A stretch of DNA of 64,000 nucleotides, from positions 1 to 64,000 of the forward strand of contig JAJEGA010000033.1 in NCBI GenBank assembly GCA_022820125.1, in the 5' to 3' direction. The notes below the pieces were generated by a model, which was given only the letters and a program-made list of their open reading frames with translations, did not search any database and was not told the DNA's origin. Positions within the stretch are counted from its first letter, which is position 1. The number at the start of each line of letters is the position of its first letter. Made by a program: the position numbers and the translations under genes. This DNA is from Anaerolineae bacterium. Its GTDB lineage: Bacteria; Chloroflexota; Anaerolineae; Aggregatilineales; Phototrophicaceae. This document shows positions 6,387 through 50,476 of this stretch, one piece after another.

Positions 6387-6484
6387 AGCAATCGCTGCTG
6401 TGCCGGGTAGTGTATCGAAGTCGGTTGAAATTCACGCCAAGCGTAATACTCTTTCAGCGTCGACATCATCCTTTAGCGAAAATT

Positions 6485-6550
6485 GTAGGGGCGATTCTGT
6501 GAATCGCCCGCCGGAGATTATCAAGTGGGCGAGCCAAGGCTCGCCCCTAC
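6485..6550. repeat. Two-hairpin GTAGGGGCGA repeat
   Basis: 66-bp copy of the dispersed element. Ends are GTAGGGGCGA and TCGCCCCTAC. Hairpin 1 is GGGCGATTC-TGT-GAATCGCCC, hairpin 2 is GGGCGAGCC-AA-GGCTCGCCC. The stem bases differ from the 139-bp copies but still pair. Lies in the 292-bp gap after dgkA and could end transcription there. Confidence 0.85.
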
Positions 6551-6624
6551 AGATGCTTGAATGATGATGTTTTCTACATTCAACCGAAATGGATACACTG
6601 CCCTGTGCCGTTCTTCCTCGGATT

Positions 6625-9107: not shown

Positions 9108-9208
9108 AAACTGCGCGAAACGCTCCCTAAAACTTGGCAGTGCATCCATTTCGGTGGAAATAGAAAAAGCTTTACCACAGAAGTAAACGCAAGTAAGTCA
9201 TGCGAAAA

Positions 9209-9347
9209 AGGGCGATGCTAATCTGATTCGAGATCTGTAGGGGCGAGACTTGTCTCGCCCACTATGTCGCCATTGTACATGTGGGCGACTCAAGAGTCGC
9301 CCCTACGACGTTCCTTCATTTTATTGCATTACTTTATTGGACTTACT
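9209..9347. repeat. 139-bp direct repeat, copy 2 (two-hairpin element)
   Basis: Near-identical to 1-139. Core 9237-9306 with both hairpins intact. Sits in the 537-bp gap between 9107 and 9645. Apart from this repeat and the hairpin at 9561-9580, nothing recognisable is seen in the gap. Confidence 0.95.
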
Positions 9348-9560
9348 GAGGGCGCAAAGATTTTTTACGTTGCTTGGCGGAGTTTTCCAGTCCACAGAAT
9401 TAGCCACTCCCTCAAAACTTGAAATCTCGTTATTGCTGTGGTAGCGTAGTGTCATGCGGAAATCAGTCGATAGCGGTCGCAACTTGAATTGTTGTTGTCG
9501 TAGGGACCTCTAGGCGGGTATGATTGGTTTTCCAGGAATTCGGCGTTTCGCCACCAACAA

Positions 9561-13286: not shown

Positions 13287-13312
13287 GGGCGACCTGATAG
13301 GTCGCCCCTACA
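13287..13312. repeat. Single-hairpin half copy of the GTAGGGGCGA family
   Basis: GGGCGACCT-GAT-AGGTCGCCC followed by CTACA. Lies between the converging DUF952 and SDR genes, where it could act as a bidirectional terminator. Nothing else is seen in 13227-13417. Confidence 0.75.
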
Positions 13313-14272: not shown

Positions 14273-14346
14273 AGTCATTCTTCCTTGATGCACATTGATT
14301 TGATCATGCACAAAACTCGTCCAATAGACGCGCGGATTAGGGCGCG

Positions 14347-14371
14347 GACGGCTCACCGAGCCGCCCCTGCA
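14347..14371. repeat. Degenerate half copy of the GTAGGGGCGA family
   Basis: CGGCTC-ACC-GAGCCG followed by CCCCTGCA. Part of the consensus is still readable. Located between the SDR and RraA-like genes. Confidence 0.5.
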
Positions 14372-24570: not shown

Positions 24571-24763
24571 CAGGCCAATCGCGCCAAAATCATAATGCGC
24601 CGTTCGCCACGAATATTGTGAAAATGTAGGGGCGTATCGGCGATACGCCCATTGAATATGACATAAATTTTGCGGGCGTTTCAGCGAAACGCCCCTACAG
24701 ATTACGAAATGTGAGGGAAGATTTTTATTTATCAGCGCAATTTCATTTGATGCGATTGCCCTG
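24571..24763. mobile_element. MITE-like element, 193 bp, GTAGGGGCG core
   Basis: Ends CAGGCCAATCGCGCCAAA and TTTGATGCGATTGCCCTG. Same length (193 bp) as 39003-39195 and near-identical to it in inverse orientation. Flanks CTGGGCAATG and ATGGGCGATG agree at 8 of 10 bases. The interior holds a two-hairpin unit (24626-24698) with stems GGGCGTATC/GATACGCCC and GGGCGTTTC/GAAACGCCC. No coding capacity. Confidence 0.85.
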
Positions 24764-36149: not shown

Positions 36150-36250
36150 TGGGCGACTGATAGAGCCGCCCCTACGCATATATTCTGGGCAGTGGGCGAC
36201 CCAAGGGTCGCCCCTACAAGTGTATTCTGGGCAGGGTCGCCCCTACAAGG
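36150..36250. repeat. Cluster of GTAGGGGCGA-family half hairpins
   Basis: Three hairpin-like units in the gap between two convergent genes: GGGCGACTGATAGAGCCGCCC-CTAC (36151-36174), GGGCGACCC-AA-GGGTCGCCC-CTACA (from 36194) and a shortened unit ending GGGTCGCCCCTACA (to 36248). The last two are each preceded by TATTCTGGGCAG, so the unit was partly duplicated in tandem. Likely a bidirectional terminator. Confidence 0.75.
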
Positions 36251-39002: not shown

Positions 39003-39195
39003 CAGGGCAATCGCATCAAATGAAACTGCGCATATAAATAACAATTTTCCCTCACATTTCGTAATCTGTAGGGGAGTTTCGCTGCAACGCCCGCAAAATT
39101 TATGTCATATTCAACGGGCGTATCGGCGATACGCCCCTACATTTTCACAATTTTTGTGGCGAACGGCGCATTATGATTTTGGCGCGATTGCCCTG
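39003..39195. mobile_element. MITE-like element, 193 bp, inverted relative to 24571
   Basis: Ends CAGGGCAATCGCATCAAA and TTTTGGCGCGATTGCCCTG. Flanks GGCTTCAATT (38993-39002) and GTCTTCAATT (39196-39205) match at 9 of 10 positions: the clearest target duplication in the set. The two-hairpin unit spans 39068-39140; one stem has decayed (GGGGAGTTTC against GCAACGCCC). Confidence 0.88.
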
Positions 39196-50450: not shown

Positions 50451-50476
50451 GGGCGAGACAGCGGCTCGCCCCTACA
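50451..50476. repeat. Half copy of the GTAGGGGCGA family
   Basis: GGGCGAG-ACAGCGG-CTCGCCC followed by CTACA, between the PDZ gene terminator and the rny stop. Confidence 0.7.

Follow-up and report, generated by a model that had tools for sequence, protein, structure and literature searches.

The hairpin repeats of this genome belong to a REP/RAYT system and are REP elements with a GTAG tag, and all five full (two-hairpin) copies in the window (64 kb of contig C45, counted from base 1, in a genome of 4.2 Mb and 127 contigs) are the centres of longer MITE-like elements that fall into three families. We consider it very probable (roughly 0.85) that REP pairs of this system were captured by these three MITE families and then copied inside them. 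By analogy with E. coli, Stenotrophomonas, and Marinomonas (PMC8266576), the RAYT, an HUH/tyrosine transposase, would bind its cognate REP in folded single-stranded form, at the GTAG tag, the loop, and the stem, and process it, and the paired stem would be kept because the RAYT reads the folded form. Such processing would in the past have scattered REPs, single or in pairs, mainly to sites downstream of genes; REP pairs would then have entered MITEs and been copied by DDE-type transposases (ISAs1-type for family C), with stem types inherited as founders once a MITE carried a REP pair.

The window contains 15 occurrences of the core GTAGGGGCGA with at most one mismatch, where 3.05 were expected and the largest shuffle gave 8. 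Across the 4.2 Mb genome, the exact pattern GTAGGGGCGN{3,12}CGCCC has 914 matches, and the reversed control has 0. These hairpins share with REPs a GTAG that adjoins a short stem-loop, a high copy number, and a mainly extragenic position: 16 of 182 units outside the MITEs lie inside predicted genes, against 80% of random positions. In a first sample of congeners, 24 of 24 had the pattern, with 5 to about 700 matches each; most other families of the order have it less often. Other close RAYT matches are to Chloroflexi, and the organism is probably an uncultured member of the Chloroflexota. A literature search with the core sequence returned only papers on unrelated subjects, and an Rfam scan of the window returned two tRNAs and nothing else. 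The full copies that the first-pass annotation had placed at 29, 6485, 9237, 24626, and 39068 were read directly, and its half copies at 13287, 14347, 36150-36250, and 50451 were likewise confirmed. The half copies are solitary or clustered REPs:

13287-13311, minus strand: solitary REP, stem GACCT, between convergent predicted genes
14346-14370, minus strand: solitary degenerate REP, GCAG tag, stem GGCTC with one imperfect pair
36151-36246, minus strand: three REP units in the same orientation (36151-36175, 36194-36217, and a partial unit to 36246), with convergent predicted genes around
50451-50475, minus strand: solitary REP, stem of GAGCC type, imperfect, between convergent predicted genes

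Several half copies had been described as lying between convergent genes, and this holds, for predicted genes, at three of the four sites (13287, 36150-36250, and 50451). When the flanks of non-MITE REPs were clustered, one loose group was obtained, probably of unmasked degenerate REPs, and it was not used.

A REP transposase had been predicted for this genome, and a protein query taken from a congener retrieved two RAYT genes, both outside the window:

L071 4733-5275 (contig C82), plus strand: RAYT, 180 aa, TTG start
L072 4728-5450 (contig C23), minus strand: RAYT

Each gene is bracketed, as in a REPtron, by inverted REPs of the same type with GTAG outward: GACTC REPs with loop TGT around the C82 gene, and GTTTC REPs with loops GTT, GCC, and GCT around the C23 gene. 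NF047646 (REP_Tyr_transpos) was the best or only family in the RAYT family search (E 5e-18 to 1.4e-19), at 65-70 bits against a curated cut-off of 80 bits; we file the genes as RAYTs by motif, bracket, and homology, and not as NF047646 equivalogs. The RAYT profile matches PDB 4er8 (TnpArep, E 2.6e-5). The HxH of the HUH motif (H77, H79) and the tyrosine Y161 of YIxxNP are invariant in 22 RAYT sequences, and from the YIxxNP context we infer that Y161 is the catalytic tyrosine. RAYT genes are present in 27 of the 34 genomes of the genus.

A Pfam Y1_Tnp search of the same genome found nothing, which we regard as a failure of sensitivity because the protein query retrieved two RAYTs; the full-length L072 protein scores 30 bits against Y1_Tnp. 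In several congeners (L041, L042, L044, and others), Y1_Tnp gave weak C-terminal matches in 640-700-aa frames, and these long proteins were set aside after one had been read. An upstream extension of the frame at L072:4728-5450 crosses two flanking REPs and would encode CRGVSxKRP peptides, and the coding sequence of the C23 RAYT contains a degenerate REP-like stretch, TGTAGAGGCGTCTCGGCGAAACGCCC.

Stem type tracks RAYT phylogeny. The stem is the same on both sides at 27 of the 33 RAYT loci of the genus that are bracketed by REPs (shuffle mean 3.7, maximum 13), and these loci carry 13 stem labels. On the RAYT tree, stem type takes 16 changes, whereas shuffled labels take a mean of 29 and a minimum of 25. 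Two sites recur, each within a transporter locus whose type is predicted and named from the sequences. At site 1, the RAYT separates the binding-protein gene of a sugar-type ABC transporter from the permease gene (our C82 locus and about 17 congener loci); at site 2, it occupies the equivalent position in a peptide-type ABC transporter (our C23 locus and four congeners, all GTTTC/GTCTC). Nearly all site-1 RAYTs fall in one clade (support 98/93), which also includes L060 and L070, two loci without the site-1 neighbour genes. The loop opens with G in every REP beside a GTTTC-clade RAYT and with T in nearly all REPs of the site-1 clade.

The positions of the repeats, which were counted on approximate gene calls made by a simple codon score, bear on whether the hairpins act in RNA. 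The 158 intergenic non-MITE units comprise 33 in convergent, 106 in same-direction, and 19 in divergent gaps, compared with about 19%, 58%, and 22% of random non-genic positions; the corresponding counts for MITE-borne units are 7, 28, and 18. The suggestion that the hairpins are transcript terminators found no support: neither strand has a T-run after the hairpin (T 0.26 and 0.31), which makes intrinsic termination unlikely. The hairpins might instead be kept as mRNA 3' stabilisers or transcription barriers, host roles of a kind proposed for REPs elsewhere (PMC3733652), and the avoidance of genes and divergent gaps by non-MITE units agrees with such a role. We nevertheless consider it an improbable explanation of the hairpins, because it has to contend with the missing T-run on both strands, with stems that follow the RAYT tree, which RNA function does not predict, and with MITE-borne units that do not avoid divergent gaps (18 of 53). 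A secondary host role of REPs may exist beside transposition.

Alignment of the two-hairpin copies together with their flanks revealed conserved arms and sharp ends. The elements in the window are as follows, with no strand assigned:

1-139: family A MITE, left end lost at the contig start, aligned with 27 further copies
29-98: REP-pair core of this copy, GAGAC/GACTC, spacer 22
6406-6602: family B MITE with a central REP pair, ends GGTAGTGTATC...GATACACTGCC, aligned with 10 further copies
6398-6405 and 6603-6610: 8-bp target duplication CTGTGCCG of this copy
6485-6550: REP pair read from the sequence, stem GATTC on the plus strand, spacer 17, stem GAGCC on the minus strand, GTAG tags outward
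9182-9347: family A MITE, complete at 166 bp, core 9237-9306, 2-bp GA duplication at both ends
24571-24763: family C MITE, 193 bp, ISAs1-type ends (CAGGSCAAT...), imperfect 9-bp duplication TGGGCAATG/TGGGCGATG
24626-24698: core of this copy, GTATC/GTTTC, spacer 23
39003-39195: family C MITE, opposite orientation, 8-bp duplication CTTCAATT
39068-39140: core of this copy, left REP mutated (GTAGGGGAGTTTCGCTGCAACGCCC)

Families A, B, and C have terminal inverted repeats, no coding gene, target duplications, and repeated copies. Family A, with ends AGTAAACGCAAGTAAGTCATGCG.../...TTACT, is 166 bp long; family B, with ends GGTAGTGTATC.../...GATACACTNCC, measures about 197 bp; and family C, with ends CAGGGCAATYGCA.../...TGCGATTGCCCTG, measures 193 bp. 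A fourth family, D, combines ends like those of A with a different core. The target duplication of family A is 2 bp, GA or TC, in 9 of 11 copies, that of family B is 8 bp, and that of family C is 8-10 bp, some copies being imperfect. The longest word shared by the two flanks averages 7.25 bp for C and 7.5 bp for B, against about 3 bp for mispaired flanks. About 124 of 306 sampled REP units (about 40%) have family A-D arms, and 182 do not. The two-hairpin copies are REP pairs, but they were dispersed mainly as the cores of MITEs bounded by terminal inverted repeats and flanked by target duplications, a second mechanism that the first-pass annotation had missed. Contigs of the assembly often start or stop inside such elements, as is expected of repeats.

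Several smaller observations concern these elements. At L133:16976-17118, a C-type MITE without a REP pair adjoins a B-type MITE, so that insertions are nested or clustered there. Family A favours CAGA|GAG (CTC|TCTG) sites, with its 2-bp GA/TC duplication, for example at the window flanks 9172-9181 and 9348-9357, although the sampled DNA has no excess of CACAGAG (126 occurrences versus about 134 expected under uniform base use). In a C-type element (L091:8370-8618) and an A-like element (L147:130-330), the right REP is disrupted by a similar stretch, CGCGCGTAGACACnGnnGGTCA, which has 8 copies in 1.09 Mb and may itself be another small element with REPs as its target.

The ends of family C also occur in autonomous elements. 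ISAs1-type transposase genes occur in 6 of the 34 genomes of the genus; one congener element (L231) carries the 20-bp family C end CAGGGCAATCGCATCAAAAT with 0 mismatches, and another (L229) has ends with 3 mismatches to family C and a 9-bp duplication. Family C resembles ISAs1-family IS elements and their MITEs in its CAGGG ends, its 8-10-bp duplication, and this 20-bp congener end, and differs in having a REP pair in place of the transposase gene. No ISAs1 (PF13808) transposase was found in the genome itself, and a search there for IS256 (PF00872), considered as the partner of family B, also found none. Metagenome-assembled genomes often lose such transposase genes.

We also considered whether all copies, including those with two hairpins, are REPINs spread by RAYT alone, the outer arms being shared insertion sites. 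RAYTs are present, outward-tagged REP pairs are the known REPIN unit (PMC3116915), the arrangement of two inverted REPs is found in 79 head-to-head pairs in 1.09 Mb, and REP dimers within long palindromes of A. variabilis were read as target sites (PMC3733652). Several features of the elements make this account quite unlikely. Their arms are terminal inverted repeats with sharp ends that were copied along with identical REP pairs and spacers, and duplications of 2, 8, or 9-10 bp flank them. Two C copies keep their arms without the REP pair; the junction leaves GTAAC in one and GAT in the other, and the former looks like a near-precise loss of the pair. Mobilisation as single-stranded DNA, which the first-pass annotation had proposed, is well supported as far as the family identity of the hairpins goes (GTAG tag, perfect hairpin, and matched, REP-bracketed RAYTs here and in most congeners), but the five full copies spread mainly as MITEs.

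Stem pairing was analyzed in 1.09 Mb of the genome, in 257 units picked by GTAGGGGC and a closing GCCC only; inner-stem pairing played no part in their selection, and shuffled right arms served as the control. The inner 5 bp are perfectly complementary in 189 of the 257 units, compared with a mean of 24.5 (maximum 42) after shuffling, and 17 of 63 distinct arm combinations are perfect, compared with 2.2 by shuffling (maximum 8). Because these inner stems were unselected for pairing, and because connecting the 17 distinct perfect stems takes at least 17 pair changes, the covariation of the inner stem is real, and pairing is indeed kept though the stem letters differ. The REP copies are not independent, since head-to-head pairs recur with the same stem combinations and almost the same spacers: GAGAC/GACTC with spacer 22 (n = 29), GATTC/GAGCC or GAGCA with spacer 17 (n = 13), and GTATC/GTTTC with spacer 23 (n = 7). 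Among the full copies, the stem variants trace back to the founders of a few amplified families. For these copies, whose stems are fixed within each family, a few ancestral copies do explain the variants; changes that preserve the structure by independent, paired alteration are seen at the RAYT loci and not among the full copies. That covariation is a founder effect alone, with a few ancestral stems amplified and pairing not selected, is highly improbable. In its favour, each MITE family has its own fixed full-copy stems and spacers, and perfect stems make up only 17 of 63 distinct arm combinations; against it, those 17 exceed the shuffled maximum of 8, and the 13 stem labels at RAYT loci agree on both sides in 27 of 33 cases.

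At site 1, the permeases are 82-94% identical to our own permease, and the RAYTs about half identical. To judge by these sequences, the site fits vertical descent in which the protein and the REPs on its two sides changed jointly; exchange of the RAYT cassette may be an alternative to change in place. A broader proposal, which we put at a little short of an even chance, is that the two REPs flanking a fixed-site RAYT passed jointly through at least seven stem types (GACTC, GATTC, GAGCC, GACAC, GACCC, GTTGC, and TTGCC), and that REP pairs were captured in parallel by at least three unrelated MITE families, so that two transposition systems share one element. If so, the fixed site would be a natural series for reading the code of RAYT-to-REP recognition, its matched stem changes providing ready pairs for the study of hairpin recognition.

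Because REP pairs ride in DDE-type miniature transposons, REP copy number need not reflect RAYT activity, and it fits the resident RAYT loosely. GTTTC is the commonest stem in one congener (G009, 137 exact copies), and no GTTTC-bracketed RAYT is among the RAYTs found there; GATTC has 47 copies in our genome, and its cognate RAYT was not found in the assembly; TTGCC-bracketed RAYTs are accompanied by few other TTGCC copies. The MITE route and lost RAYTs could explain such cases. As a proxy for RAYT activity, copy number gave weak results (one-sided p 0.05, 0.02, and 0.008) and was not relied on, because the genomes are related and most of the excess is small.

GTAG-tagged REP families have been described previously, including one in Chloroflexi, T. 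roseum GTAG-23 (Di Nocera et al. 2013, PMC3733652). Compared with those families by description, the stem consensus not being matched letter by letter, the repeats analyzed here likewise have a 9-bp perfect stem that immediately follows the GTAG and closes on a loop of 2-3 nt, form head-to-head pairs that are mostly heterodimers, are intergenic, and bracket RAYT genes. They differ in that about 40% of sampled units lie in MITE families with target duplications and in that stem subtypes follow RAYT lineages within one genus. Group 3 REPtrons of Stenotrophomonas and Marinomonas have perfect-palindrome REPs, and their TnpAREP and REP are described as co-evolving (PMC8266576). They share with our system a short perfect hairpin, a 3-nt loop, a GTAG tag, and a transposase with HxH and a catalytic tyrosine, whereas our system has a 9-bp stem, belongs to Chloroflexota, and is described from sequence. 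One loop base, G or T, was critical in the two group 3 systems tested in vitro (PMC8266576), and the loops that start with G (GTTTC clade) or T (site-1 clade) recall G13 and T13 of that study. REPINs of Pseudomonas fluorescens (PMC3116915) also consist of two inverted REPs per unit, with RAYT genes that do not multiply themselves; here, in contrast, 76 of the 79 pairs are heterodimers, and recurrent pairs with identical spacers lie inside elements bounded by terminal inverted repeats. These results show that a Chloroflexota genus harbours a REP/RAYT system that is dense and diversified; the lineage is new, and all its features are known in kind except the nesting of REPs in MITEs, which is unusual. 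REP dimers within long palindromes were already reported in A. variabilis (Di Nocera et al., PMC3733652), whereas here three or more element families show the nesting, have target duplications, and in one case match the end of an IS family.
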